From positions 1-36,353 of the IMG/VR virus record IMGVR_UViG_3300026484_000014: a DNA stretch of 36,353 bases. One strand, 5' to 3'. This document shows, piece by piece, positions 9,101 to 35,215 of this stretch. The position numbers and the translations under genes are program-made. The notes beneath the pieces are model-generated. The model was not told the origin of the DNA, searched no databases, and was given only the letters and a program-made list of their open reading frames with translations. Source of the stretch: a virus. Every line of letters starts with the position of its first letter. Position 1 is the first letter of the stretch.

Positions 9101-10469
9101 CAAGGTACAGTATGATATGGAAGTACAAAAACTAGATGAAGTAACTGATGAAGCTAAGCTTGATATCATTGCTGGACTTAGGACTCAATTTCCTTTAATT
9201 AAAGGCCCTATGGCTAGTGATTTAGATGAAGGTGTTGGTATATATGACACTAAGAGTACAACTCCATTAGATGGTACTCGTAAAGTAGTCCCTGCACAAA
9301 CTAGAGTAGACGGTACACAGAAAAAGATTAGATTTATGATTAGAGATTTTGAAGCAGCTATGAGTGCTGGATCAGTTGTACCTATTCACTACATAGATGG
9401 GGCTATAATGGCTCAAGTACTAGGTGGTAGTGACATTGTGGCAATCCATGATGCGATTATACCTCCGTTAAATAAAGCTAAAGAAGATATAACTAAGTAT
9501 AATGAGAATATGTTTAGGATAGGGCAAAACTATAGCTTTATAGATGAGATCTCTGAGATGATGAGCAGAATAAATACTCCTTCTGATGCGGATGCTAAGA
9601 GGTATGCTAAAGTTGTAGTTAGAAAAAGATATGATGAAGATTCTAAGAAAATGGTAGAAGTTAACTTACTGCAAGCTATACGAGAAGATTCAAAAGCTGT
9701 TAAAGAGCTGGCAAATACTGTTAAAAAGGCTAGGCAGCAGGTTATAGGAGGGCTATCTGAGGAAGGTGTTAAAGTAGGTCACATGGCTGGTGTTCCAGGG
9801 AGTATGTGGGAATCAAATAACACTGCAGAAACTGACACCCCATTTCAGCATATGACTAGTATGCCAAATACTGATCAGATACTATTCAATGAGATAAAAG
9901 ACAGATTAGCTGAAGTATTTCCTACAATAAAAGTAGAACAGTTTAATAATGCTGTAGATAAATATGGTGAGGAAATAATAGGTAAAGCTATAGAAGATAT
10001 AGTGTACTATGACCCAAATAAAGCAGGATTAGATACATTACCACACGAGTATGCACATGTATATATTGATTTATTGGAAAGAACCCCATTTGTAAACAAC
10101 TTAATAGATAGAGTAGCTACTACTGATAAAATAAGTAGATATAAAGCTAAGGAAAAAATTGTTACAGCTATGGGTGAAAACTATGTAAAATTAGCCAAAG
10201 GTGATGATATAGGTATCACTAAAAACCTTATAGATAAACTATGGCAGTTAGTAAAGAAATTACTAGGAAATGATAAAGTAATTACTATAGTACAAGATAT
10301 AGAAGGACTCTCAAAGAGATTTTATGAAGGTGTAAACAAAGATGTTATGGATTTTAACAGCTTTCATAATAATATGCAAGCCACTTCAAAGAACAATGAT
10401 GTTATAATATCGTCAGAAGAAATAGATGAGATCTTCAGTAGTAAAACTGCCGAAGGTACTTGTAAATAA
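3135..10469 (+). CDS. Giant virion/ejection protein with HExxH metallopeptidase motif, 2444 aa
   Basis: This is the largest gene in the window. An AAAGG sequence about 9 nt upstream supports the start. A hydrophobic stretch at about residues 374-395 is followed by a segment EGAQEVAE (about 456-463) and a Gly/Ala-zipper-like stretch (about 496-515, SMGGAMAGGGAALGT). That combination is common in giant phage proteins that are ejected into the host. Long Lys/Glu-rich helical regions follow. Near the C-terminus the sequence HEYAH (residues 2304-2308), preceded by LP and followed by a hydrophobic helix, is a zincin HExxH motif, with H2304, E2305 and H2308 as likely zinc ligands and catalytic Glu. 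I infer a polyvalent virion protein that enters the cell with the DNA and may carry a peptidase. An antirestriction (DarB-like) role is an alternative. The middle 1700 residues contain nothing I can name. Confidence 0.75.
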   Translation: MATLFDTPEFSQEPNKADVLAQAKQDKVARLEPHLANTKTALDLQTELSSAVDKQIHTRPDGTKFQYDFQTLNEDGTYADPSVEIDYTDTNRWGKANTRNLYIDNTREGNYKLGLARSDNSDPFLNRYMDKRAYGSYDGRPGVRGVTPQDGALLDIELPYDTATQLEYNVHSNKGQINNRVAGVTIPEIDKNRADFGPGISEYTTPNAPMWNIDYKIKKDLLPNNAYMPHVVDGKASGYTPVLTKMADQVTDPLKMNNLFDSPDDGTVGELIDNSQSSIVSTFASAGHQLLDVITPKEYEDAPWFKAVSKFTKDWSNTDKTDKVFGVNQRNKRIANKELQDITEKEYDSEIDRLTDTIFSSLKHLDVHIGQSMGTMTMIAIPYAGIPLATLERTGKRYDDYKAKYGKEPSDEWVLKSASADLATMAAEKLFLKTVGKSFTATTKSQKVGTAVVGAGYEGAQEVAENKVDKALMNKEETTFEDEFTSWDASDTVSAGTGLSMGGAMAGGGAALGTITPTNVGKVIDKVQEATPSRPKADIGQTEKDNIAKAAINMPDDEILPMDQLHNMEASVEDIKGHKDYAAAVAKVTRMKANVAKAMEEMDTAALTKTLGSKAMVEDAIDDALGAGNGIIPTTLEAKLREVAGEYGITAEHFDKIVKDYDAVELEATKSVGGYKTYGKAAISILNSVEPDPRKVEKLVGKLEKFRKSQAKFLAEGSSLIDDVEASINDYNKDVLKGLPGGAIKGQYKAKIGNNEFKVNTETYTKKGKTLYRIQDASRKILEAKERNIAGIDKQLTRIATELKEKGIKSAADSDVVVDTEIAKVPKAVKKSIKILTKDINVDGAKILHVGKDTKEINVLREQSPEVFNTSGAKRVVLNLPALPDTQTGKNQLNKILNELKEGELGKTINQLKADGVTITLRGRNVGPKVKHGKGTETLYGKIRAYLGNSYEGSPKYTHNGDNVTFINDSDAKKSRDEKTLDKKTKVEAKAKSDAIKDKIYSQWVDKGESVLNGDLSGITTFDGRDKDKKILLKTHFENTYKAQQKEVTTLVNALSRLGAHRELLKEDDGTDNGDKIIATAKKEKIIHDKLKKYPTKLVEGVVEGIKKAEMNKDKTTAHVINIAKLRQELTLLTDEDLINAVETKIQEELYELSKLTNDYNAVETSIEDTKAKGLKQLYQYIPKGSKSMDERVATTKAKAEKAKMEGTTVFTPIMNLKDLVKSTSSDTLNTVPVDMMFNSEYTDITSADYVADMVDFIDKHITEADGTTFGTGDTATVVTGEQYTAMDSPATYLLKNADGSVNTNIVMAMKLALDEYISINGKNLSASGKSADDLARMLGIHESAVTREMIEGFGDKGTFKKTLANDIGKAITTKIGLKATKKGKTQFARLQAELGHIAILANTGKGKLLEEVSMTTKEYAKLTGSKPADNDAKVIFIRENLVEGKVSNEWDNTKDTYEKVSSIIQDSPVFRKEPSRKPIPESKRRYIKDGVSKDSTGLQIPTGKKDGQISPKEALDNLSDTKWKSNTKIIKQVLSMDRQALYKWLGYVDPDGMKKLSHYDKAAQDSVNRDIEKSVDELQKILDDDVKGDGLIVYFDWFYSKNGRYMMDSNTINPQTDKLHRFLITPEAHELVYKVGKNRSMIVDGKDVTDMVNYALAQAMGFATDKKNTKKVQGVGNALRNVTKKELVAIKKKVLSGEDIEIAGVELEIEHISHALQALDMMEQLVNGDIVTSSLSAEFDAVTSGFGLKLMQMPIIKDIRMWLEKVGVFSKDSKNVLPSMNDILDQEHFFDSYQTLAKEVKVNDDSMEKAIKAKAKEEKHSPIGILLSNKPEKIVKEYFDVFADVMPGVAEDGSVSGALRSLFKEPFMTFNYSAGIKSIRKALSGNLTGSIVAQLLNGKIDKKSKLAKHLVKIVADVNTFKELKAVLREKQLYTIKTSTGVSLDKYLNMMMDISFGHKVEEIMTKNFEEFIAAHKVINDAFKTMFKSFKVQYDMEVQKLDEVTDEAKLDIIAGLRTQFPLIKGPMASDLDEGVGIYDTKSTTPLDGTRKVVPAQTRVDGTQKKIRFMIRDFEAAMSAGSVVPIHYIDGAIMAQVLGGSDIVAIHDAIIPPLNKAKEDITKYNENMFRIGQNYSFIDEISEMMSRINTPSDADAKRYAKVVVRKRYDEDSKKMVEVNLLQAIREDSKAVKELANTVKKARQQVIGGLSEEGVKVGHMAGVPGSMWESNNTAETDTPFQHMTSMPNTDQILFNEIKDRLAEVFPTIKVEQFNNAVDKYGEEIIGKAIEDIVYYDPNKAGLDTLPHEYAHVYIDLLERTPFVNNLIDRVATTDKISRYKAKEKIVTAMGENYVKLAKGDDIGITKNLIDKLWQLVKKLLGNDKVITIVQDIEGLSKRFYEGVNKDVMDFNSFHNNMQATSKNNDVIISSEEIDEIFSSKTAEGTCK

Positions 10470-10477
10470 GGATAGTA

Positions 10478-13400
10478 ATGAGCTGTATAGATAATAGACA
10501 CTATGATACATTCAAAGAAACTCAACGTAGGGTAAGAGAGAAGTACCCTACAATGACAGACGATGAAGTTAACACTAAAGTAGCCAAAACTTGGGTTGAA
10601 TGGAAAAATGTCCCTATGAATAAAACTGAGAAGGATATATACAAATCAATCGCTAAAGACGGCGTGTTTATAGGGCACATCAAAGGCACTAAACAAAAAC
10701 AGATTGTAGAGCCTATAGTGGCTGTAAGAATGCGTAATGGGCACACTACGGTGTATCTAGCAAATGACACTAACTACACATTCAAGTATGGTAGTGGTGA
10801 AAGTATGAAGACAGCTAAAGGTATGATAGTAACTAGTGCGTTGGTCAGAGATGCTATACCGGCAAATAAAGTATTGGGGTCGACACCTAAGAATACAAAG
10901 TTAGATGTAAGTACCTTCACTAAATATGAAGGTAAACTACACGGTGATATAGACGCTATGAAACAGTTTGTTGATCAATTAAATGAAATGGATAATAATA
11001 TAGAATCAGATGAGAATATAGCTGAATTAAAAAGCCTTCTGGATATGCTAGATCCTACTATGATGGGTAAGTTCAAGACATACTATAAAGAAGGTACATT
11101 AGACACACATGGAGCTATCAGTGGTAAGCGGATAGCAATTAGTATATCAGGGAATCATAATAGTGGGAAGTCCGCAGCTGAAGTATATGTGCATGAGGTA
11201 ATTCACAGCTACACAATGGCAGCTATAGCTATGGCAGCAGCAGGGGATGTAAAAGCTAGGAAGATTGTTAGACAATTAGAAACACTTATGAATACTGCAC
11301 ATACTGCACTTAAGAAAGATGGGAGTGTAGACAAAGAAACAATGAAATATATGTTCGAGAGTGAGCACTCATTAGACGAATTTATAGCACATACACTTAC
11401 TAATAAGAAGGTAAGAGATCTATTAAAGACTGTAGATGTCTCTAAGAGTAGAGAGCATAATGGTATAGTAGATACTATTAAGGCGTTATTCAAAACAATT
11501 CTTGATATAATAAGTGGAAACTACAGTTTAGAGAATATGAAAAGTAATGTATATGATGCTACATTAACCCTATCTATGAGGCTAGCAGAAAGTAATAACC
11601 ATAATATACAAAAAGCTAAGAGTAATGAAAGTTTGCCTAGTAGAGTATGGGAAGCGTTTACAGCATTTGATGAAGATGTGCTGGGGAGGAAACTTATAGA
11701 ACTTAAGGACAAAGTGTTTACTGATGTAAAGTTACCAGATATTCCAGATTCACTTCCAGGAAAGGTAATGTGGTATGTTAAGGCAGTAGTCAAGACAGCT
11801 ACTGTACCAGGTTATAGAAACCAAGCATCTAAGATAGCATCCACATGGGGAATGGGCCCAGATGGGACAATACAAACACTTATGAGAGATTTCTTTGACC
11901 AGGATGCACTGGAAAGAGAAGTAGACTGGACTGCGTTACAATCAGATAGAATAGATAGTGGTAGAAATGACTTGAAGTCAGCTACAGCATTTAGTATATT
12001 TAAGGGGTTTGATGGTAAGTTAGAAACTGAAGATGATGTTGCACTTAAAAAGGTAATAGTTGATACTGAGTTACAGAGCATATATAACACAAAAAAATAC
12101 TCAAGATCTGATATAGTAGAGATACTAGAAAACGAGAAAGCTTTAGAGACTAAGATAGGTAGAGTAAAAGCTAGGATAAAGAAGCACAATGCGAAGGGGT
12201 ATAATTACCTGGTTAATCAAGCTACAGGATTAGGGTACTTTATGGCAACTGGTAAAATTCATATTGCACAGAATACAAATACTATTAACATAGCTAGTGG
12301 GATACTGACTAGTGAAAGAGTAGGTAAGAGAGGCCAGGAGTTCTACGCACTAGTCGCTGCGTTGGACGAGTTAGCTACACTTACAGCATTAAAACACACA
12401 GATAGTCACCATAAAAAGAGTGTAAGCGCATTAATCAAGGCACAGAGTAAAGGTGTAGATAATGTAGTCGCACTTGCGAAGTTAAACAAGGGTATAGCTA
12501 AGAATACAGTATTTGAAGGGAATAAGACCCATATGATACAAGGGTATAGTAAAGAGCTATTTGATGATAGAATAACTATGGAGATAGCTGAAGTAAGTGA
12601 TAAGGCTGATATGGAGAAAAAGGGATATAGATTAGTTAAAAAACTAAAGAACCACTCTACTGAAAGAGCAGATGCTCCAAAGATGGCCATGTATATCAAT
12701 GAAAGCTTTAGTACTGGTGAATGGCATAGAGGAGCTACTAGGTTGACTAAGCTAAGTAGGAAAGGTACTTCACTTAAAGCAGTCTATGGTGGGACTGATG
12801 ATCAATTTAGTAAGATTAAGCACAGAACAGTAAAAGTTAAGTTAGATAAACAAAGATATGAGATAATGGCTAAGATGAAATCTGGTGAACTAGATGTAAC
12901 TAAGTTAGATTATGGAATGGGTGCTGTATTGAATGAGGATGGTCAAGTTGTTGATTATAGGTATATGATGCCAAAGGTCGATAAAGAGAGATACTTAGGG
13001 ACAGATAATAAAATTAGTGAGGTATTACCGGCTACCAGAGCTAGTACATATGATAAAGAAAACACAGCTATACATAATGAAGATGTATTGAAGTTAATTA
13101 TAGACGATGCTAAAGAGAATTATGTACATAAAAGTGTTACAGGGAAGAACGATAAAATGTACACACTGATACATCCAGATAGTACTGATAAGAGAATTAA
13201 AGAGTTATGGGAGATAATGCCTGCAAGCTTTAAAAAAGCAGCTAGAGATAGTAAGTATAAAGGATTACCTGTAAGAACAGATTTAATGGGAACATATTTT
13301 GGGTATAGACACTTGAGCATTACAGACTTCCCAGGTATGGAAAAGTTTACACCAGCAGTAGTTAGAAATTTCATTAGAATAGCTGAAACCATGTGGGTGG

Positions 13401-14404
13401 AGTTTATAAAGATCGTTAAGGTTGATATATTAATTAAAGTCCCAGCAGTCATAGTAGGTAATATTATATCTAATGCTGCGTATGCAGTTATGACAGGTAC
13501 AAACCCATTAGAGTTGATAAAGCACTATACTGAGAGCACTAGAGATGCTAGGGCATATATTAAGGACCATAGAGAGTTAGTTAAGCTTATGGAAGCTAAG
13601 AATAGTGGTAATAAGTTAGGATTAGACATCAGTAAGTTACCATTATTAGAGAAGAGACTAAAGAACAATCCAATACATGAGTTGGCTGAAAGTGGTGTAT
13701 ATCAAGCTATTGTAGAGGATATAAGCCACTCAGAGTTTGAGAGTACAAATAAGCTAAAAGCCTTATATAATGAAAAAGCTAAGAAAATGCCTAAAGCTAT
13801 TAAGACTGGATTGAATTGGTTATTCTTAACTGAAGAGACAGGGGTGTATAAATTTTCTGCTGAGGTACTACAAATAAGTGACTTAGTAGCTAGAGACGTT
13901 GAGAATAGGAAGTTAAAAGCACTAGAAGTAAGTCAACTAACTGGTAAGAGACCTATGCCTACATGGTGGGACAAAGAAATGGAAAAACCAGGTGGTAGGA
14001 GTGGAATTCCTAAAGGGCCTCTTCGTAAGAGATTTCTAGAAGAATCTAAGAAAAGAAGATTAGATACAGTACTTAATGCATTCATTAATTATAATAAAAT
14101 AAGTGGTTCTAAGGAAGAATACCTTAATAGAATGGGTTTAATTATGTTTACAAAATATGCTAAGAGAATTCAAAAAGTAATTGCTAATACTAGTACTAAG
14201 TACCCTCTTAAGTCATTAGGAATGTTATTAGGGCAATCATATATATATGACTTTGAGACTATACAAGACCAACAAGTAGTTACAAGAAGTTGGTATAACC
14301 TAGGTCTTGGAAATGGTGATATTGTGCCAGGGCTGAGTCCATTTACGCACATAATGAACGTATTGGAGCCAGCACTGATACAACCATCAACCTACAGATT
14401 CTAA
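10478..14404 (+). CDS. Giant virion-associated protein with HExxH peptidase motif, 1308 aa
   Basis: The gene starts 8 bp after the preceding giant, with an AAGGA sequence just upstream. Residues 239-243 read HEVIH in the context VYVHEVIHSY, and Glu301 lies in SLDEFIAH, the spacing expected of a downstream Glu ligand in gluzincin-type phage peptidase domains. A hydrophobic segment at about 983-1008 (VPAVIVGNIISNAAYAV) may insert into a membrane. The last 60 residues are rich in Gly, Leu and aromatic residues. By position and size it is probably a second internal or ejected virion protein acting with the 2444-aa product. The peptidase could process virion proteins or open the cell envelope; this is inference. 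The gene ends tail to tail with the - strand operon, and its last 18 bp overlap a small antisense gene. Confidence 0.75.
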   Translation: MSCIDNRHYDTFKETQRRVREKYPTMTDDEVNTKVAKTWVEWKNVPMNKTEKDIYKSIAKDGVFIGHIKGTKQKQIVEPIVAVRMRNGHTTVYLANDTNYTFKYGSGESMKTAKGMIVTSALVRDAIPANKVLGSTPKNTKLDVSTFTKYEGKLHGDIDAMKQFVDQLNEMDNNIESDENIAELKSLLDMLDPTMMGKFKTYYKEGTLDTHGAISGKRIAISISGNHNSGKSAAEVYVHEVIHSYTMAAIAMAAAGDVKARKIVRQLETLMNTAHTALKKDGSVDKETMKYMFESEHSLDEFIAHTLTNKKVRDLLKTVDVSKSREHNGIVDTIKALFKTILDIISGNYSLENMKSNVYDATLTLSMRLAESNNHNIQKAKSNESLPSRVWEAFTAFDEDVLGRKLIELKDKVFTDVKLPDIPDSLPGKVMWYVKAVVKTATVPGYRNQASKIASTWGMGPDGTIQTLMRDFFDQDALEREVDWTALQSDRIDSGRNDLKSATAFSIFKGFDGKLETEDDVALKKVIVDTELQSIYNTKKYSRSDIVEILENEKALETKIGRVKARIKKHNAKGYNYLVNQATGLGYFMATGKIHIAQNTNTINIASGILTSERVGKRGQEFYALVAALDELATLTALKHTDSHHKKSVSALIKAQSKGVDNVVALAKLNKGIAKNTVFEGNKTHMIQGYSKELFDDRITMEIAEVSDKADMEKKGYRLVKKLKNHSTERADAPKMAMYINESFSTGEWHRGATRLTKLSRKGTSLKAVYGGTDDQFSKIKHRTVKVKLDKQRYEIMAKMKSGELDVTKLDYGMGAVLNEDGQVVDYRYMMPKVDKERYLGTDNKISEVLPATRASTYDKENTAIHNEDVLKLIIDDAKENYVHKSVTGKNDKMYTLIHPDSTDKRIKELWEIMPASFKKAARDSKYKGLPVRTDLMGTYFGYRHLSITDFPGMEKFTPAVVRNFIRIAETMWVEFIKIVKVDILIKVPAVIVGNIISNAAYAVMTGTNPLELIKHYTESTRDARAYIKDHRELVKLMEAKNSGNKLGLDISKLPLLEKRLKNNPIHELAESGVYQAIVEDISHSEFESTNKLKALYNEKAKKMPKAIKTGLNWLFLTEETGVYKFSAEVLQISDLVARDVENRKLKALEVSQLTGKRPMPTWWDKEMEKPGGRSGIPKGPLRKRFLEESKKRRLDTVLNAFINYNKISGSKEEYLNRMGLIMFTKYAKRIQKVIANTSTKYPLKSLGMLLGQSYIYDFETIQDQQVVTRSWYNLGLGNGDIVPGLSPFTHIMNVLEPALIQPSTYRF

Positions 14405-17883: not shown

Positions 17884-17977
17884 TTATTAAATCCTCTATT
17901 AAATGTTTAGCAGAAGGTAAATCCCTTCTGAAAGGTTTCAGCACTATCTTATATAACCATTCAGCTAGCTTCCGCAT
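17876..17977 (-). CDS. Possible 33-aa peptide between nrdA and nrdB
   Basis: This tiny ORF starts inside the last codons of nrdA (ATG within TCATGC) and its stop overlaps the first codons of nrdB. GGAAGGG lies about 9 nt before the ATG. The peptide is basic in its first half (MRKLAEWLYKIVLKPFRR) and amphipathic in its second half (about residues 19-33), an amino acid mix that looks coding rather than random. It may serve mainly to couple nrdA and nrdB translation, or encode a small functional peptide. A 7-bp inverted repeat (CAGAAGG / CCTTCTG, 17911-17930) lies inside it. No homolog is recognised. Confidence 0.45.
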   Translation of the reverse strand: MRKLAEWLYKIVLKPFRRDLPSAKHLIEDLIND

Positions 17978-19011
17978 GAGTCACACCCTTCCTCTTCTAA
18001 TTCGCCTTCCTCTGTTGGAGAGTAAGTGTAATAGATAGATTTCATACCTAGGTGCTCAGCATACATAATGTCTTGAATAACATCATGAGCTGAATTAGGG
18101 TTAGGGTATGCTAGTGATACAGACTGCCCCATACAGATAAATTTCTGTCTGATAGCAGCTAGTTCAATAGTGTCAGAGTTAGCTGTTCTAAATGTAGTTT
18201 GGTAGAACTCACGATTTTCTCGTAAGTTAGGTGCTACAAACGGCAGTGAGTATGTTCCCTCAGTAATTGTCTTAAGCTTCCTAGGCACATCTACACCAGG
18301 AGTTGCATTAATACATTGTCCTGATGTAGCTGTAGGAGCCACTGCTAGTAGATACTCATTACGGATACCGTATTGAAGAAGATCATCTCTAAGGCTGTCC
18401 CAGTCCATTAAGTACTCATAGTTTAGGTCAGAGTCTAGTCCACCTAAGATTGATATCTCATGTGGAAATACACCATCTGCCCACTTAGTGTCCTTAAATA
18501 CTGGACATCTCCCTCTTTGCTTAGCTAGCTTTACTGAAGCTGCTATTGCATAGTATGAGATTTCCTCAAATACTTCATGAGTTAGCTTACGAGCACCTTC
18601 AGAATTCCAAAGTAATCTAGCTGAAGCTAGCATATTTGCATAGTTACTAACTCCAATACCTAGGTTACGATGTGTCATTGAGTGGTGCCTACCTAACGCA
18701 TTAGAGTAAAATGAATTATCTATTGCGTTATCCATAGATCTTACAAGTAAGAACATAAAGCTACTTTTTTCAGATGGGCTCATAGATACCCACTTGATAA
18801 GGTTTACTGAAGATAGATTACATAAGGCCACATCCCCACTATATCTACGATCTAGGTAAACACCATTGTTTAATGATGTAATAAGATCGTCTTCTATATG
18901 TGTGATGGGCTTAAAGTTAGGCATATACTCCATACATAAGTTAGATTGTGTAATAACTCCGGATCCAATGTTTTGGATATTTGCGTTATCTGTAAAGAAT
19001 GTGTAATTATT
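17965..19011 (-). CDS. nrdA: Ribonucleotide reductase large subunit NrdA, exon 2 (C-terminal part)
   Basis: This is the second exon of nrdA and continues directly from the ETG that ends exon 1. The first exon codon is AAT at 19011, right after the intron's terminal ACG. The joined stretch ETGNNYTFFTDNAN aligns without gaps to the RTGRIYIQNVD region of E. coli NrdA. The catalytic set Asn427, Cys429 and Glu431 (QSNLCMEY) lies 24 residues past the junction, the second active-site Cys is 467 (ALCNLSS), and the C-terminal redox pair is CDSC (746, 749). The spliced protein would be 751 aa, normal for class Ia. The Met at 18933 is internal, not a start. The C-terminus overlaps a 33-aa ORF and is followed by nrdB. 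Confidence 0.9.
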   Translation of the reverse strand, partial: NNYTFFTDNANIQNIGSGVITQSNLCMEYMPNFKPITHIEDDLITSLNNGVYLDRRYSGDVALCNLSSVNLIKWVSMSPSEKSSFMFLLVRSMDNAIDNSFYSNALGRHHSMTHRNLGIGVSNYANMLASARLLWNSEGARKLTHEVFEEISYYAIAASVKLAKQRGRCPVFKDTKWADGVFPHEISILGGLDSDLNYEYLMDWDSLRDDLLQYGIRNEYLLAVAPTATSGQCINATPGVDVPRKLKTITEGTYSLPFVAPNLRENREFYQTTFRTANSDTIELAAIRQKFICMGQSVSLAYPNPNSAHDVIQDIMYAEHLGMKSIYYTYSPTEEGELEEEGCDSCGS

Positions 19012-19903
19012 CGTTGTATTCGATAGTAGTCGTTAGCTACTACCCGTTCGCAGAGATTCTTCGGCTCGTGAACTGCTACATGTTACCATGCAGACTAGAC
19101 TATATCATGACCTCATTGAGGTCCTTCCTGTTTCGAATCTACTTAGATTCTACTCCCTTTCGGGATAGTCGTTGGACGTTATTACGGCAAGTTTTATAAG
19201 AACAATCAGGTAATACACGCAGACCAGTGAGCCACGCATGGTCAAGGTTTTCCTGCTGTGTTACCCATTCCAGGTTGTCTAAACAATTGTTAGTTTTTAC
19301 ACCATCAATATGGTTTATCTGGAGTTGTGAGAAGTCGTCACAGGGCAGAAACGTCATACCGATTAGCCTGTGCAATCGTTCATAGATTGCTGTCTTACCA
19401 GAAGGTTTAGTATGTCGTACATTTACACGTAAATAGCCATATTCATCCTGATAGGGAGATATGCATCTACGAGTTTTGCTTGTGATTACAGTACCGTTTT
19501 TATGGATACTGTATTTCTCTGAGCCAAATAAGTTAGCTGTTACAAATCCGGAAGGAAGTGGTAACATCTCATACTTAGCATACACTTTACACATTATCTT
19601 GTTAAGGACTGGTATATTGGGTATACTGTATTTGCTTAGTAGCTCGTCTTTTGTTCTTATATGTAAATCCTTTAAAAAGGACTCAACTAGTAGTGGAGTG
19701 TTCAGAAACTTCTTGTGTAAAGTAGTTAGTGGCATTCCCTCTAGTGTTATTTCTTGCTGTAATCTTCGCTGCTGATTGTCCATTTAAACTCCTATGAAGC
19801 AATTATATATAATTGTTACTTAGTATTAGTTTAAATTAGGATGTCCCAGACAATTAAAGAAGTTATTCGACATACATTACTGTATGAAGGGGCAATTATG
19901 TCT
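19012..19903 (-). mobile_element. Group I intron in nrdA, with HNH ORF
   Basis: The 892-nt intron interrupts nrdA in frame. The S-like block GATATAGTCTAGTCTG starts at 19106 and runs downward. The R-like block CAACGACTATCC is at 19174-19163, and the Q-like block CAATCAGCAGCGAA falls at the very start of the intron ORF. The hairpin CTGCATGGTAACATGTAG next to S resembles P9 of T4 td, as I recall that sequence, which points to subgroup IA. The proposed 5' splice site follows GGGT, which can pair with GCCC eleven bases into the intron, putting a U-G wobble at the cut as group I P1 requires. The 3' end is CGAATACAACG, identical to that of the Sak4 intron. The endonuclease ORF sits between Q and R (P6-type position). 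Confidence 0.85.
19139..19783 (-). CDS. HNH homing endonuclease in the nrdA intron
   Basis: The 214-aa ORF has an HNH_3-type core: INHIDGVKTNNCLDNLEWVT (about residues 157-176), with the zinc/catalytic His in NHID and the Asn in LDNLEW. A segment YSIHKNGTVITSKTRR upstream resembles the DNA-contact region before the HNH core in such enzymes. The ATG has AGGAG 5 nt upstream. The enzyme should cut intronless nrdA near the insertion site so that the intron is copied in. Its first codons are the intron's Q element and its last 16 codons read through the R element, so the coding sequence and the ribozyme core overlap at both ends. At the C-terminus the residues NNVQRLSRKG are therefore imposed by ribozyme sequence. 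Confidence 0.85.
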   Translation of the reverse strand: MDNQQRRLQQEITLEGMPLTTLHKKFLNTPLLVESFLKDLHIRTKDELLSKYSIPNIPVLNKIMCKVYAKYEMLPLPSGFVTANLFGSEKYSIHKNGTVITSKTRRCISPYQDEYGYLRVNVRHTKPSGKTAIYERLHRLIGMTFLPCDDFSQLQINHIDGVKTNNCLDNLEWVTQQENLDHAWLTGLRVLPDCSYKTCRNNVQRLSRKGVESK

Positions 19904-21112
19904 ACCCGTTTCAAGCTTAATCGTAGCTACTGTCATTGCAAGATCCCTAGCTGAATATTTACGCTTACGGATATGAGTATTTCTAGAATACTTATCATAC
20001 AATTGTTGTAACTCTTCTCCATAGGCATATGTCATATCTTGTGTTTTATGTGGATCAAATAAATAGATAGCCTCATCAGCTATAATAGCTTCTGATAGTT
20101 GCTTAGTCCACTTGATTGCGTACTTAAGCTTTCTAGCTCTATCCTCATCTTTACCTGACTCAGATTTCAACTCAGTTATTTCAGGTGACTCATAATGAAA
20201 CCAATTGTAGTATAATGCTAACGCACTAGACCTTGTTGATCCTTGGTTATAGCCACCTGTTACTGCTTGTATTGACTGAATAAATGGGACAACCCCACCA
20301 GATTTACCTTTATTACCTACTACTATAGAACCTTTAGCACGAATAGCGGATATATCCGTAGATAGTCCTCCACCATACTTAGATTCGTTAGCCAAGAAGT
20401 CATTAGTTGCATTTAGTGATTCAAGTCCATCTTCTGGACGTGCTAAACAGCAGCTAAAAGACTGTGCTTTAGGTCGTAATGAATTAACCATTTTTGGAGT
20501 AGCCTCTGTAACTTCATGTGAAGCTAATTGGGTATACTTTGCTATGATTGCATCAGTTCCTTCCTTCCACATTAGCTGTATAGCTACACGCATATATACG
20601 TGTTGTGGTAGTTCAAGTAATTGTGTTTTATCATGATTACAGTATTTTTGTACAAATAGATTTAGTCCACCAAATGTAAAGAGCTCATCATACGATTGAG
20701 TTATTGCTTCAGCAAGTGCTGGTACGTCTAGTTGTTCAGTTATTACTGGATCATACAAACCAACTGCTGTATTGGCTTCAATTACTTCAGAGTAATCTGG
20801 GTATTTAGCCCTTTTGACACCGATATCTTTGTGTAATTTTAGTATGTATAGTTTCTTAGCTACTTTCTCCCACTGCGGGTACATATCAGAAATCATGTTA
20901 GATGCTGTGTTTATAACCTCATCATATAATTTTGTAATATGTATTTTATTATGGATCTTAATGTTAACCGCTTGTATTAGCTGATCTGCGAATACGTGGC
21001 TTCCTTCACAGGCCCATAGAACTACCTTATATAGCTTATCATGATTATATGGTACTATAGACCCGTTACGTTTTGTCACATTATGTGACTTATTAGATAC
21101 TAATTGTACCAT
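19904..21112 (-). CDS. nrdA: Ribonucleotide reductase large subunit NrdA, exon 1 (N-terminal part)
   Basis: NrdA reduces ribonucleotides to deoxyribonucleotides with a radical passed from NrdB. Residues 10-90 look like an ATP-cone (TKRNGSIVPYNHDKLYKVV), the allosteric activity site. The first active-site cysteine lies in SFSCCLARPEDG (Cys221 or Cys222), followed by the conserved KYGGGLSTDIS and RAKGS blocks. Exon 1 holds 403 codons and ends at ETG. Translation past this point into the unspliced intron would add only HNCPFIQ-type residues before a stop, so an unspliced message yields a truncated, inactive protein lacking the catalytic Cys429. AAGGAG about 6 nt upstream supports the start. The gene follows the DUF2829 gene. 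Confidence 0.9.
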
Positions 21113-29158: not shown

Positions 29159-29619
29159 TGTACCCTCCTTGGGTCTTGTTTTGGTTCTGTTTCGTTAATA
29201 ATAACTGTAACACCTTCATGGTCAGCCCATGGATCTGCTGTAAATTGTATTGACTGAATATACGTAATTGTGTCATCAGGTATGCCACCTTGTTGCACTA
29301 ATACATCACTAAAGACCTTATCCACCATAGAAAGAAGATTTGATAGATCTATATTCTTAGGTGATGAGTCTCTATATGGATCCGCCTTAATTGGTTTACC
29401 TTTTGTTGGAAGCGTGTGTAGTATATACTGTATAGATATACAATTAAATACTTCCTTAGGTGATGATTCATACAAAGCTTTGGCACATAGCTCACCATAT
29501 ACTCGCTTGAATGCAGATTGTTGCCTATAGTGCGCATTACGGAATACATTCATAGTCATTAGAGCACCACTCTTCTTCTTATAGAATGGAAGTGGGAGCT
29601 TTACTATTAATGAGTGCAT
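29143..29619 (-). CDS. RusA-like Holliday junction resolvase
   Basis: RusA resolvases cleave four-way DNA junctions with a cluster of Asp residues and a Lys. Here NIDLSNLLSMVDKVFSDVL gives Asp91, Asn94, Lys101 and Asp105, and GGIPDDTITYI gives Asp115 and Asp116, matching the D..DN..K...D.L....I.DD pattern of the family. One of the early aspartates is replaced by Leu/Ser compared with the DxDN consensus. The length of 158 aa is slightly above the 120-130 aa of E. coli RusA. The gene overlaps the primase stop and the next gene. It probably resolves branched replication intermediates before packaging. Confidence 0.75.
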   Translation of the reverse strand: MHSLIVKLPLPFYKKKSGALMTMNVFRNAHYRQQSAFKRVYGELCAKALYESSPKEVFNCISIQYILHTLPTKGKPIKADPYRDSSPKNIDLSNLLSMVDKVFSDVLVQQGGIPDDTITYIQSIQFTADPWADHEGVTVIINETEPKQDPRRVQCNNT

Positions 29620-31372
29620 TAGAACTCCTTAATCTGTCGTTCTAGTGCTTCAAGTCTATGAGGTGGGAAGGGGCTATCCCAATATTCAGAGATCTCATGG
29701 ATTAGAGATACTATTTCTTCGTATGTTGCTCCTAGTTGATGAGCTTTCCATGCAGCTCCATATAGTTTTCTAGATCCCTCACCATGGTTAGCGTTAAATG
29801 CTGCCTCGAAAGTTGTATAATGTTGACTAAGTGCTGCTGCTCTTTCTTTAGGTGTCATTGGCTTTTCTGGAGTAGCTTCCTGTGCTTGAGATGTAGCATA
29901 CATTATATGGTTCTTAATCTCTATAGGTGACTGATCTGTAACTGATAGTACATCTCTGCCATTATATCCAAAGAATATCTGTGATTGAGGTAATTTATCA
30001 ATTGGGATTTGTAAGAAATTACTCAATGATTGAATGAAGTATTTCCATATAGAGGCATTAACATCTACTGAAGCATCTAACTGGATGATTACTCTATATT
30101 TCTTGGGATTATTCTTGTCTGATGTTCTAGCTATGTGGTGGTTGATATCACCTAACATAAAATGCATCTCTTCATCAGTAAGTGGTGTGTCATCTACGTC
30201 AAAACATACCCAAGTTGTACCACTAGCTATATTCTCTCTTCCTCTAATACCATCTTTTAATTTAAATGGTGTAAAAGCTAGGTCTATTGCTAATAGATTA
30301 GAAAGCTCTGGGAATGATGATTCTGCATATGTATAGCCTGTTGCTGTTTGAGATGCCACTATGCCTTTAAGTCTAGTAATCTCCTCCTTACTTGCACCTG
30401 ATTCTATAGCTTCTATCACCTTAGAATTATCTATTGGTAAGAATGAAGCACCTATTACATCTGTACGAATTATCTGTTCATAACATATTACATTCTTATC
30501 TATAGTGTATATACCGTCAGGATCATATGATGATGCTAAATCAATCAGTGTCTTCATTGCTGATGTTGGATTAGACGTAGAAGGTATATATTGCAGCTTC
30601 TTTAATAAGTGAAGTGTTATAGATGATTTGCCTGTCTTATCCGCTCTTAGTTTCATATAGTCACAGAATACTTCATATTTCTCCTTAACTAATTCCTCTT
30701 CAAATTTTCTCATATCACCATCTATAAGTTCTACATATGATATAGCATGAATTAAGTCTTGCTTAGTGATTGTGTCTCCACATTCAAATATAGCGAATGC
30801 TCCTGCTAATTTTAGAGCTTTCCAATGTGCATGCTTACGAACTATCATAGATATTGGATATTTCTTATCAATGTTACATGACATCTCTGTATTATACCGT
30901 TGATATATATCATATATATCCATCGCATCATCATCAAGAGTTAATAATAATGGATCACTATCTGATAAGTTACAATTTGCTATTGTCTCTGATAAAGTAT
31001 TTACTACTTCTGCAGATCTCATAGCTGTTTCCTGTGCCTTTCTTTCTGCATCTAGCATTCTCTTGATTGTATCTGCTGGTGTATCACCTTCTTGTTTATA
31101 GTTTGTTGGGATAACCTCTTCTGGAGTAAAGCTAAAGAATGATCGTCTAGCTAATTTTGTTGAAAATTCTTTCTTAAATAAAGATTTAATCTTATCATCG
31201 AATAATAAATTTTCATGAGATCCTATAAATAAAGCGGATACTGCTAAGTTCTTGATTTCTGGAGTTTGCGCTTCCTTATTCTTAAGTGGCTTAGCTTCTT
31301 TATATCCTACATCATATAATTCGGACATAATCCGTATAGACGGGATCATGTCTGCATTGGTTTCCATTTCTG
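29619..31372 (-). CDS. Primase/helicase-like protein, exon 2
   Basis: Exon 2 starts in the codon T|CA, so the joined stretch reads GELGSEMETNADMIP. Its first 260 codons are helical, with the alanine-rich segment HAHWKALKLAGAFAIFE that resembles the C-terminal part of DUF3987-type phage helicases. From about residue 560 of the spliced protein, WVCFDVDDTPLTDEEM (Asp566, Asp568), HHIARTSDKNN and KKYRVIIQLD resemble the catalytic DxD, sxH-like and Arg-strand motifs of archaeo-eukaryotic (AEP) primases. The ending GEGSRKLYGAAWKAHQLGAT, then SPFPPHRLEALERQIKEF, resembles the PriCT domain that follows such primases. The His motif is not exact. The spliced protein is 758 aa. I infer the phage's DNA primase or primase-helicase. 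Confidence 0.7.
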
Positions 31373-32636
31373 CGTTTATATTCAACACAACTCGTTAGGT
31401 TGTGCCCGTTACTCAGTGAGTAACTGCTGTATGTCTCCATACAGACTAGACTATATCTTTACCAGCAGTTAAGCAGTTACATATAGAAATAGGTTTATTA
31501 GATATTAAGATTGGGTGTGAGATGGTACGTAAAGAGTTGCAACTAGTACACCTCATGTACCATCTTACTTGTTGAGTGGTATCGCCTACTGAAACAAAAG
31601 AGTGATCTCCAATAAATAGCCAGCCGTTACGGATAGTAGTTAAGTACTTATCTCGTGCTGATGATAGACGTTTGAGCGTCATATCATTGGCTCTACATAG
31701 TTTGCACTTAGTAGCTTTGTTATCGTAATTCTCTTTTGTAGGTAGTAGACGAGTAGCTTCAATTACTTGTTCAGTTCCACACTTACATTTACATGTAAAG
31801 GCAGGTCTAATGTGTGTGGGTGATACTTCCACACGTCCCAAGTAGTTGATGATAGTCCAGCTGTTGATTGTGTTACCGACCAATGCACTGTACTTATCCC
31901 GCATAAGAGTTATCTGTAACTCAGCGTTCTTGTCGCCACCTTCCTTAGCTGCTTGAGACATTCGACCCATAGATACAGCATGGTCAGTATTCTCTTTGTA
32001 TGTGCACCATTCAAGATTAGATACACGATTATCATGTCGTATGCAATTCTTGTGGTTTACTAGAGGCTTATCTGCTATATTAGGGATAAATGTTTTAGCA
32101 ACTATTCTATGTACTTGTTCACGTAATACATCAACGCCATTACGTAGCGTAATTCGTCTGTATGTACTAGTTTTGCTTTCCAATAATTTCCATTCTTGTT
32201 TTTTATACCGAGACTGTATTCTACCTAAAGTAGATACTTTATAGTCTGGATAGTTATCTATTAATTTCCATATTTCTTTCATCTTCATCCCTTATACGTA
32301 AGTATAACGTAAAGATGATTTTGTATTTCTTAACTGGTATGGTATCTTCCATTTCCACTCACTTGAGTGTACTCCCACTTCTGGGATAGTCGTTGAACGT
32401 GCTCCATTAAAGGAGATTCGCTGCTGATTGTGCATATATATTAGATTTTCAGGGTTCGCTACCTACTTTCGTGGTAGTATCCTACTAATATCTTAACTGC
32501 AGTTTCCAGCAATTAGAAAGATTATTCGATACGTATTTCTACGTAAAGGGACTAAAGTGTTTGCCTATGTGCTATTACTACTATCGTTTGTTTATTATCA
32601 TCATAGTAATAGTTATTATAAGTTTCACTTATGTTT
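31373..32636 (-). mobile_element. Group I intron in the primase/helicase gene, with HNH ORF
   Basis: The intron is 1264 nt, the longest of the three. It has P-like AATTGCTGGAA, Q-like CAATCAGCAGCGAA (from 32430 down), R-like CAACGACTATCC (32395-32384) and S-like GATATAGTCTAGTCTG (31456-31441). The ORF lies between R and S. The 5' exon end GGAT can pair with GTCC some 85 nt inside. Between them the arms AAGTG/CACTT and CTATTACTA/TAGTAATAG stack as an extended P1, which fits the splice site well. The 3' end reads GAATATAAACG, a diverged form of the CGAATACAACG of the other two. The 346-nt stretch 32289-32634 holds only these ribozyme elements and no gene. Confidence 0.85.
31446..32288 (-). CDS. 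NUMOD4-HNH homing endonuclease with Cys-rich C-terminus
   Basis: Residues 4-27 (EIWKLIDNYPDYKVSTLGRI) are a NUMOD4 motif, the DNA-contact module that precedes HNH_3 domains. The HNH core is LVNHKNCIRHDNRVSNLEWC (about 75-94), with NHK and NLEW. The rest of the 280-aa protein has cysteine pairs typical of zinc ribbons: CKCKCG (about 165-170), CKLCR, CTSCN and CNC. The C-terminal part is similar in plan to zinc-binding DNA-recognition domains of other phage homing enzymes. It should cut the primase gene at the intronless site. The stop at 31446 is inside the S element region (31456-31441), so the ORF end overlaps the ribozyme core. Confidence 0.85.
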   Translation of the reverse strand: MKMKEIWKLIDNYPDYKVSTLGRIQSRYKKQEWKLLESKTSTYRRITLRNGVDVLREQVHRIVAKTFIPNIADKPLVNHKNCIRHDNRVSNLEWCTYKENTDHAVSMGRMSQAAKEGGDKNAELQITLMRDKYSALVGNTINSWTIINYLGRVEVSPTHIRPAFTCKCKCGTEQVIEATRLLPTKENYDNKATKCKLCRANDMTLKRLSSARDKYLTTIRNGWLFIGDHSFVSVGDTTQQVRWYMRCTSCNSLRTISHPILISNKPISICNCLTAGKDIV

Positions 32637-33159
32637 ATCCAAGTTCACCTGTATAGAGGAATCCTGCACCAACTGGTAGTGATTCTATATCAGCCAGATG
32701 GTCTAGATAGGCAGCTGAATTTGTCATTGCTGCAAATAATGGTGCAGGTTTTCTGAAGAAGTCCTTATGCCTATCCCATCTCTCTGGGTCCTCTACGCCT
32801 TCATCCTTGGCCTTTTGTATAGCTAATTTAGTAGCTAGTTTATTTCTATGAGCATCTATTTTAGCATATCCTTTACTTAGTGCGGATCTAATAGCTTTTA
32901 CTGTTCTATCTTTATTAGCACCAGAAGCTGCTAATACAAATGATATAGAGTTAATTGGTATTGCTGTCTTATCTGCAGGTAATTTTATATACCTTCTGAA
33001 TTGAGATGCATACAACATTAGCTCTGATACTGCTACTGATAGTTTCATTGAGTAGGTGACATCACCTGTAACAGCGTCTGTCATATTAATTAAATGTGGA
33101 GAGATCTCTCCTTTAAACACTCCCTCTGATGAGAGATGTGTTCGTAGTGTGTCTAACAT
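32637..33159 (-). CDS. Primase/helicase-like protein, exon 1 (DUF3987-like N-terminus)
   Basis: Exon 1 encodes 174 residues plus one base. AIPINSISFVLAASGANKDRT (about 67-86) is placed where DUF3987-type proteins carry their P-loop, but the Walker A Gly-Lys-Ser/Thr is changed to Asn-Lys-Asp, so ATP binding is uncertain. The exon ends in FLYTGELG, just before the conserved Gly-Ser-Glu segment that is restored by splicing. AAAGGA lies about 7 nt before the ATG. The region just upstream (33183-33342) is the retron-like RNA. Unspliced message would stop directly after GELG, giving a truncated protein. Confidence 0.7.
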
Positions 33160-33182
33160 GTGGTTTCCTTTATGTTGGTCTT

Positions 33183-33342
33183 ATTGAATACTTTTTTTTT
33201 CTTTTCTGGATTTTGAATGCATGTCCTGTATCTAGTATCACGCAAACGAAGTGTGCGTGATACTAGATTGAGTATAAGGTTTCATAATTGATAACAGGGA
33301 CGCTTCGTCTCCATACCCTATACTCGCTAGTATCTATTCAAT
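33183..33342 (-). ncRNA. Retron-like msr-msd RNA, downstream of the RT
   Basis: The stretch between the RT stop and the primase start contains, in transcript order: ATTGAATA (33342-33335), complementary to TATTCAAT (33190-33183), like retron a1/a2; TAGCGAG (33329-33323) with a candidate branching G at 33327 in AGC, the same seven bases as at the start of the Ec86 msr as I recall it; GAGTATAGG (33325-33317), which pairs with CCTTATACTC and encloses the hairpin GGAGACG-AAG-CGTCCC; and a perfect 15-bp hairpin (33268-33230, loop 9) in the msd position. A-tracts of 9 flank both ends. The order RT-then-RNA differs from the usual RNA-then-RT layout. The identification rests on structure and the adjacent retron-like RT; msDNA production is inference. 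Confidence 0.65.
33230..33268. repeat. Perfect 15-bp inverted repeat (msd-like hairpin)
   Basis: ATCTAGTATCACGCA and its exact complement flank a 9-nt loop. Neither strand has a U-run after the stem, so it is not an intrinsic terminator for the operon. It is the strongest hairpin I found in the window, and it lies in the predicted reverse-transcribed part of the retron-like RNA. Confidence 0.9.
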
Positions 33343-33350
33343 TTTTTTTT

Positions 33351-34136
33351 TTATAGTTGTATTTGGCCCTGTAAGTTTTTAGGCAATCTACATTGCTGCC
33401 ATCCTCTAAGACCACCTAATGCATGACCTTTTTGAGGGTCATACTCGGTAAGTTTAGCTACTGCCCTAACTTTCCTATTTGTTTTTCTTGTAGCTTGTAT
33501 GTGTGATTCATATACATTTACACCTAATACACGTCTTGCCCCATATTTGGTAAACCGCACTCTTGTTTTATTAGGATTGATTGTAAACCCATATTGACTA
33601 CATGCTCGTTTCACTACCCTGGAAATTTCAGATTGAACTCTTCTTTCAGTTGAATTGTAACTTATCTGGATATCATCTGCGTATATAGTGAACGCATAGT
33701 TGTTTTCTCCTAGTAATATGTCTAAATTTAGGACAATCATCTTAACGGCTGGTATCAAAGCTATATTAGCTAATGTAGGACTAGTAGGAAACCCCTGAGC
33801 AGCATACCCTTCTCTATGGAAAAGATATGTTGTTTGGCTTTCTGATAATTCTACACCTGCCTCTTTTACATGTTTATATGTTACTGTGTCAAAGAAGTTA
33901 GATAAATCAAACATTACAGTTGCTTCATATCCAATATGTTCAGTAGCTGCTGTTATACAATTTCTATCCTCGATAAAACCATGGTAGTGTGAGAATAGTT
34001 CCCCAGCGGTCATCTGAAACTTATATGATAACTCTCGTAGTTGCTTGCGTTGGAACTTTTTAAGCTCGTCATCAGGAGCTACTATCTTGCGAAGTTTCCC
34101 CGATTTTTTCCTGATTGTGAATTCTTGGTAATCCAT
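33351..34136 (-). CDS. Retron-like reverse transcriptase
   Basis: The 261-aa protein contains the RT palm motifs: FDLSNFFD (Asp77, Asp83), AAQGFPTSPTLANI (114-124 region), YADD (152-155) and NPNKTRV (about 187-193). Features shared with retron RTs rather than with diversity-generating or group II RTs are HGFIEDRNCITAATEHIG (AATEH, 63-67, in place of NAxxH), the QGxPTSP block and RRVLGVNV (VLG, 203-205, in place of VTG), followed by a basic thumb. It has no maturase or endonuclease domain. It is slightly shorter than typical retron RTs (about 300 aa). AAGGAG sits 6 nt before the ATG, which follows the ligase stop by 2 bp, so the RT is expressed with the ligase. The structured RNA directly follows its stop. 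Confidence 0.85.
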   Translation of the reverse strand: MDYQEFTIRKKSGKLRKIVAPDDELKKFQRKQLRELSYKFQMTAGELFSHYHGFIEDRNCITAATEHIGYEATVMFDLSNFFDTVTYKHVKEAGVELSESQTTYLFHREGYAAQGFPTSPTLANIALIPAVKMIVLNLDILLGENNYAFTIYADDIQISYNSTERRVQSEISRVVKRACSQYGFTINPNKTRVRFTKYGARRVLGVNVYESHIQATRKTNRKVRAVAKLTEYDPQKGHALGGLRGWQQCRLPKNLQGQIQL

Positions 34137-34138
34137 TA

Positions 34139-35215
34139 TTACTCCTTAACTACTCCATATGGAGTACAGTCTCTAAAATTTCTAAATACTGGTTTAAGAG
34201 GCTTACCATCTTTAGACAGCATCTCATACTCAACAGTCCCCCATCTACCAATATACTCAGCAGCATTAAAGGCTATTTGTTGTAATAGCTCTCTTTCACC
34301 TTTTGGCTTAGCTTTGAATTGTTTACCTGTTGCGGTCTGCATTATCCATACTGGGCACTTATTTTTGTCTATCTCATACCCAACTATCTCAAACTCTGCG
34401 TCTAATACTGGTTTGTACTTCCAGATGTCAGATGCTCGTTGATTGTGTACGTAGATGTTATCAGGAGAGTAGATTACTGTGCCCTCTAATCCCTCAACAA
34501 GGCATTTCTTATAATGTGCTTCAATGTCTTCTAGTGTATCACACACAACTCCACGAGCTACCTGAACATATGTAGTATCTACTACTTCATTCATCATTTC
34601 TCTTCTAATACTATACACACTATTTTTATCACATATGTCAAATACCTTAGCTACTAATTTAGTAGATAGTTCCTTAGGTTTAGTGACTGCTGATTGAATA
34701 TCTTGCAGATGTTCTCCATGTTTATATAGTTCTACATTGATTTCTTTTGAGCCGACAGTATCCATGAAAGCCTTGATATCCGCTTCTAGGTGTGGGATAG
34801 GAGGTCTGGCATCACCACCACGACTCCATAGAGATATCCTCCCATAATCATCCATTCGGTAGATTATGTTAATACCATTGTATTTAGGAGTTGAGATATG
34901 CCCAGCCTTGAAACGCTTAGGTTCCCATTTGCCTACTTTACGTGGGAGTTGTACTGTTACTGGAGCTGATATATCTTCAGAATACCCAGATTTAACTTTC
35001 TTATCCCATTTGGCCTGAGCTTCTTTCTCTGCCTGCTCTATACCCGTAGTTTCATTGGAGCGTCCTACATTTTTAGGTTCACAAGGTGTATGTTCAAACT
35101 GCATCTTGCCATTTAGTTGGCCATACTCAGTCTCAATAATATCCTTTACTGTAGATATTTTACATACTTGTACCTTACCAGTTTTAGTTGTTTTATATAA
35201 AGTAGGAAGTATCAT
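34139..35215 (-). CDS. ATP-dependent DNA ligase
   Basis: Nucleotidyltransferase motifs are in order: STPKYNG (Lys111, the AMP-accepting lysine, in motif I), LWSRGGD (motif III, 129-135), INVELYKHG (Glu162, motif IIIa), EGLEGTVIY (Glu244, motif IV) and WKYKP (Lys266 and Lys268, motif V). The third position of motif I is Asn (KYNG) where Asp is usual. The N-terminal 85 residues (LYKTTKTGKVQVCKI, then NVGRSNETT) resemble the WGR-like domain found in front of such phage ligases. It seals nicks in replication and recombination. The ATG overlaps the preceding stop (TAATG), and the RT follows directly. Confidence 0.85.
   Translation of the reverse strand: MILPTLYKTTKTGKVQVCKISTVKDIIETEYGQLNGKMQFEHTPCEPKNVGRSNETTGIEQAEKEAQAKWDKKVKSGYSEDISAPVTVQLPRKVGKWEPKRFKAGHISTPKYNGINIIYRMDDYGRISLWSRGGDARPPIPHLEADIKAFMDTVGSKEINVELYKHGEHLQDIQSAVTKPKELSTKLVAKVFDICDKNSVYSIRREMMNEVVDTTYVQVARGVVCDTLEDIEAHYKKCLVEGLEGTVIYSPDNIYVHNQRASDIWKYKPVLDAEFEIVGYEIDKNKCPVWIMQTATGKQFKAKPKGERELLQQIAFNAAEYIGRWGTVEYEMLSKDGKPLKPVFRNFRDCTPYGVVKE

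Follow-up and report, generated by a model that had tools for sequence, protein, structure and literature searches.

N4-like phages encode a small retron-type reverse transcriptase (RT) accompanied by one to three adjacent RNAs built like the msr-msd templates of bacterial retrons, but with no recognisable toxin partner, which suggests that a machinery known as an anti-phage defence is also owned by phages. The module was examined in IMG/VR record IMGVR_UViG_3300026484_000014, a virus record of 36,353 bases that was analysed at its full length (the window), and was then found in ten further phage lineages, with 20 units read in 11 lineages in total. That these modules produce msDNA is inferred from sequence and is considered very likely, whereas counter-defence, the likeliest use, is only a tentative reading.

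Genomic context and overall anatomy

The window is part of an N4-like phage, with a virion RNA polymerase (vRNAP) on the plus strand and ribonucleotide reductase, helicase, SSB, exonucleases, N4 gp43-like primase and ligase on the minus strand. The module lies in the replication cluster, in the order DUF7192 protein, ligase, RT, RNA and primase (minus strand), with the RT start and the ligase stop 2 nt apart and the primase ORF starting at 33159. The features are the following:

34139-35215 (-), ATP-dependent DNA ligase, immediately upstream of the RT
33351-34136 (-), retron-type RT, 261 aa, minimal (no N-terminal extension), with YADD active site, AATEH, QGFPTSP and VLG
33183-33342 (-), msr-msd-like RNA unit of 160 nt, closed by a1/a2
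33335-33342 (-), a1 (ATTGAATA)
33334 (-), candidate priming (branch) G directly after a1, preceded by TA
33270-33325 (-), msr-like stem (33315-33325 with 33270-33280) enclosing the core hairpin GACG-AAG-CGTC (33299-33309) and CCTGTTA
33230-33268 (-), msd-like hairpin of 15 bp with a 9-nt loop; the predicted cDNA template spans about 33191-33268
33183-33190 (-), a2 (TATTCAAT), complementary to a1 over 8 bp and preceded by G at 33191, the likely first templated base
32635-33159 (-), first exon of the N4 gp43-like DNA primase, directly downstream of the RNA

The observation made in the initial annotation, that a retron-like RT with these four motifs is followed by a 160-nt stretch with 8-nt complementary ends, TAGCGAG and a perfect 15-bp msd-like hairpin, between ligase and primase genes, is confirmed. 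Two details were corrected. The two msr-like stem-loops proposed there fold as one stem enclosing the core hairpin and, by comparison with relatives, the priming G is more likely the one directly after a1 (33334) than the G of TAGCGAG. The fold of 33178-33352 has an MFE of -48.1 against a shuffled mean of -23.7 (z = -7.0, with 0 of 200 shuffles as good), and the unit alone gives z = -6.2. A long-range CCUGU/ACAGG pairing between the msr and the 3' side of the msd was also tested, but it is not above shuffles or cross pairs.

A group I intron (RF00028) with an HNH homing endonuclease (NUMOD4/HNH_3) interrupts the N4 gp43-like primase gene of the window (32276-32572, with 31446-32288, 29619-31388 and 32635-33159, all -); the gene is uninterrupted in the related record L013 (see below). 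The virion RNA polymerase is split into two ORFs of 2444 and 1308 aa (3135-10469 and 10478-14404, +) matching the first and last parts of phrog_2206; two open frames are also seen in the related lineage L019 and a single long one in L015. The large ribonucleotide reductase subunit (17965-21112, -) is in two ORFs (19877-21112 and 17965-18933) with an ORF between them at 19139-19783, possibly another intron or homing insertion.

The reverse transcriptase

The RT is a single open frame with no domain beyond the RT. Among the PADLOC models the best scores were obtained with RT_XIII (2e-39), III-A (5e-36) and X (5e-35), and all of the 25 best were retron models or the PADLOC 'RT_outgroup' and 'RT_other' sets. 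Among the NCBIfam models, retron St85 (9e-32), Ec67 (2e-25) and TIR retron (1e-24) ranked far above group II (6e-14) and Drt2 (2e-6), and the Ec67 and Ec86 RTs came first among solved relatives by sequence. An AlphaFold (AF2) model built on an alignment of 8 relatives (pLDDT 90.4) matches retron RTs best, as these occupy the top 13 Foldseek hits and the top 12 VIA-align rows (Z 17.8-20.7), followed by DGR (17.6), DRT2 (16.9) and group II (16.7). These margins are real but small, as all these RTs share a fold, and the signature residues vary (AATEH, VLG). In a tree of 38 RTs the phage family forms one clade (100/99), but its place relative to group II and other retrons has a support of 64/41 and is not resolved, and therefore membership of the retron clade rests on profiles, predicted fold and the RNA rather than on the tree.

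Related phage lineages

A search of IMG/VR with the RT alone returned no close relatives. The primase query opened the family, since it found L013 (67% identical primase), whose contig begins inside an RT of the same family followed by an RNA and the primase in the same order. Profile scans then gave L014-L016 (one phage), L017, L018, L019, L020, L021, L062, L064 and L099, which together with the window make up 11 lineages, with RTs 37-47% identical to that of the window where aligned. Most of them are N4-like: the vRNAP family is present in the window, L015, L019 and L020, a vRNAP match in L062 and L064, and the gp43-like primase in nine of ten records tested, whereas L017 shows neither. A motif-restricted query of 84,980 bacterial and archaeal genomes found only RTs of 20-25% identity, and nothing above about 30% was found in deposited phage genomes.

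RNA units and arrays

All ten relatives carry such RNAs beside the RT. Eighteen units were folded in 10 lineages (z from -2.7 to -12.3) and two more were read in L099. One unit per RT is present in the window, L013, L018 and L019, two in L020, L021, L062, L064 and L099, and three in L014 and L017, so that seven lineages carry two or three per RT, a feature that the initial annotation had not seen. The units lie after the RT in all 11 lineages, except for one extra unit before it in L014; in L021 three small ORFs lie between. This differs from the usual order of retrons, with the RNA encoded upstream of the RT, which is a usual rather than a strictly defining feature.

The syntenic relative L013 keeps the a1/a2 pair as AAGAAATA/TATTTCTT, against ATTGAATA/TATTCAAT in the window, with both changed pairs compensated, and its core hairpin changes from GACG-AAG-CGTC to TGCG-TAG-CGCA, two of the four pairs being changed on both sides. 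A MAFFT alignment of the whole window and L013 units misaligned the msd, and only the first 76 nt were used for this comparison. Within one phage the units keep the msr but differ in a1/a2 and msd. In L017, units 2 and 3 share a 50-nt msr stretch at 94% and unit 1 shares 23 nt exactly, while msd and a1/a2 differ, which is what one expects if the RT reads the msr and the msd is free to change. A short motif like TACAGGACATG directly 3' of the msd hairpin (33220-33242 in the window) recurs in several lineages (window and L018; partly L013, L021 and L064).

Core stems and a1/a2 were sought by complementarity, so that the 99% of paired cells obtained for the units is partly by construction. An independent control was provided by a descriptor without the core motif (a1 of 8 nt ending TA before G, an msd inverted repeat of at least 11 bp, and a2), which gives exactly one hit in the window, this unit, and 7 hits in 159 kb of family loci (six units and one complement of a unit), against 0.05 on average in shuffles and 0 in 391 kb of control loci. 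A covariance model (R1) was trained on the units and its hits on them are not independent; however, its significant hits in 17 whole records lie only beside the RT, with only weak sub-threshold matches elsewhere. R1 does not find the diverged units of L062 and is weak on L021, L064 and L099, so those units rest on a1/a2, junction and msd, and further diverged copies in the same genomes could be missed by it. No Rfam retron family was matched even at E 10.

Inspection of the junctions by hand showed a G directly after a1 in 16 of 18 units, preceded by TA or CA in 15 of 18, and a G directly before a2 in 14 of 18, or 11 and 10 of 18, respectively, when the helix end is taken automatically. No G follows a1 in L014-2 and L018. 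Known retrons prime at a G in TAGC, at times CAGA and others (PMC6868368), and the agreement concerns position only. L099, found after these rules were drawn up, shows two units after its RT, one of them with a 21-nt a1/a2 with one mismatch, TA before the G that follows a1, and TA after the G that precedes a2.

Neighbouring genes

No gene accompanies the RT in all lineages. The order RT-RNA(s)-primase holds in the window, L013, L018 and L062, and a helicase is next in L064, but the place is not kept in L014, L017, L019-L021 or L099. The DUF7192 gene was considered as an effector and rejected, since it occurs without the RT in Alteromonas phages (in phage PT11-V19 it sits directly before the primase, with no RT annotated, and shows an RT-less arrangement) and it is missed in other members. 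Of the ten neighbours tested, only two metallophosphatases match a PADLOC family, the candidate PDC-S10: one in L020 (3554-4204; 8.6e-66), directly after the RNA array, and a weaker homologue before the RT in L017. An unrecognised effector cannot be excluded.

Interpretation

The interpretation given in the initial annotation, a phage-owned msDNA system used in replication or as a counter-defence decoy rather than a bacterial defence retron, is partly supported: a phage-owned retron-like RT with an msr-msd-like RNA after it and no recognisable effector is borne out, while both proposed uses remain inferences. Of the observations that would have spoken against it, loss of the stems in relatives was not seen, as they are kept where the RT is intact, and the RT scores and folds as a retron RT in profiles and structure comparison, with the tree as described above.

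The explanation favoured here, with fair confidence, is a phage-owned, effector-less retron-like module of N4-like phages. In this view the RT and the RNA are probably transcribed together with the ligase and primase genes, a1 and a2 pair, the RT recognises the conserved msr-like stem-loop, primes on the 2'-OH of the G after a1 (33334) through a 2'-5' linkage and copies back through the msd-like hairpin, and removal of template RNA by RNase H would leave a short branched hairpin msDNA. In relatives one RT would serve two or three tandem units, so one phage could make several msDNAs. What the sequences themselves establish is the RT family, the RNA anatomy, its conservation with compensated stems, the arrays and the lack of a conserved partner gene; transcription, cDNA synthesis, the priming site, the branched product and counter-defence are inferred from the anatomy and from established retron biochemistry. 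As for the use, the phage keeps the RT active site and the msd hairpin but has no toxin, templates multiply and diversify within a genome, and relatives gain and lose the module. This pattern fits counter-defence better than a core replication role, and the product would most likely act on the host's side, with RT-msDNA or msDNA as a decoy or antitoxin mimic against host retrons or other ssDNA/SSB/RecBCD-linked sensors. Phages carry RNA or protein antitoxin mimics (PMC3475682, PMC11481870) and retron complexes hold toxic effectors in check (PMC12548924). It is also possible, though equally tentative, that these elements form a viral class in which one minimal RT serves an array of interchangeable, diversified msDNA templates used as a repertoire of DNA decoys or antitoxin mimics against host defences.

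A role in phage DNA replication, with msDNA priming or being processed at the replication fork, would be consistent with the place between ligase and primase, but it is considered unlikely, since that place is not kept in several lineages, annotated N4-like relatives with the same primase show no RT, and msd sequences differ between units and do not recur elsewhere in the phages' own genomes examined. A defence retron carried against competing phages (superinfection exclusion), with an unrecognised effector nearby or the RT complex itself as effector, is also unlikely, although somewhat less so: known retrons defend against phages and often ride on prophages or satellites (PMC8867640, PMC6868368), a Pf phage with a St85 retron is one such case, and the PDC-S10-like metallophosphatases lie beside the RT in L020 and L017. 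However, no gene accompanies the RT throughout, the other neighbours tested match no PADLOC family, and a virulent N4-like phage gains little from abortive infection.

Regulation of host or phage genes by base pairing, or donation of sequence for recombination, could be suggested by the different msd sequences of the units, and engineered retrons are used in this way, but no msd match beyond short chance hits was found in the phages' own genomes, to which the comparison was limited, and the long perfect hairpins are poor antisense strands; this reading is therefore doubtful. It is very unlikely that the hairpin is an ordinary terminator or processing signal and the RT an unrelated cargo gene or group II intron relic. 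The strong hairpin lies between two genes and a group I intron and homing endonuclease are close by, but there is no U-run and no terminator call at the hairpin, no group II RNA was found with Rfam, RTs of group II, DGR and DRT classes score lower, and the multi-part anatomy recurs beside RTs of 11 lineages, against 0.05 expected.

Comparison with known systems

With bacterial retrons (the RT being closest to PADLOC types XIII, III-A and X, and the RNA anatomy as in Retron-Eco1/Ec86 and Eco2/Ec67) the module shares the retron-type RT, the a1/a2 closing repeats, the G directly after a1 in [T/C]AG[A/C] and an msr stem-loop followed by a long msd hairpin. It differs in the RNA downstream of the RT, the one to three tandem units per RT, the minimal RT with [VI]LG for VTG and an AxxH-like X motif, the absence of a recognisable effector gene or fused domain, and its ownership by N4-like phages. 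Retronphage phiR73 (Retron-Eco3) and the Pf-phage St85 retrons also sit on a phage or satellite genome, but those are temperate or filamentous elements carrying a bacterial defence retron, whereas here the module lies in or near replication genes of N4-like phages and has no known effector. Retron-Nex1 (Ne160) has duplicated msr-msd without an RT nearby (PMC6868368), while here the repeated units lie beside their RT and have diverged in msd and a1/a2. The PhiTE pseudo-ToxI repeats (PMC3475682) and the phage antitoxin mimic of DarTG (PMC11481870) offer an analogy for the proposed use, as a phage encodes the antitoxin-like part without the toxin, in the form of RNA repeats in PhiTE; the sequences are unrelated, and here a reverse transcriptase and a DNA product are expected.

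Retrons are described as bacterial anti-phage systems, and an effector-less form conserved across divergent N4-like phages turns the question round to what a phage gains from making msDNA, with a testable route to phage counter-defence by msDNA. If several templates per RT are truly copied, this would also be a natural case of multi-template msDNA production with a very small RT, of use for DNA production and editing tools. Nothing on effector-less or arrayed retrons in lytic phages was found in the partial literature collection searched.

Other RTs

RTs of Staphylococcus jumbo phages (LY01, PALS_2, MarsHill, Machias), called retron-type by depositors or related by tblastn, are about 22-27% identical, and LY01, the one inspected, shows no such RNA by descriptor or R1. 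A second, separate clade of phage RTs (L023-L037; 325-408 aa, about 25-30% identical to that of the window and monophyletic with 100/100) is often next to a convergent large ORF, with no RNA found by R1. The best scorer outside the family against its HMM (132 bits) is a 278-aa RT (754-1590) on a 4.2-kb Klebsiella pneumoniae ColE1-like plasmid (L082) with no known effector; it is followed by a stretch (1604-1742) whose fold is not better than shuffles (z = -1.3) but which has retron-like complementary ends (GTGATTA...TAATCAC).
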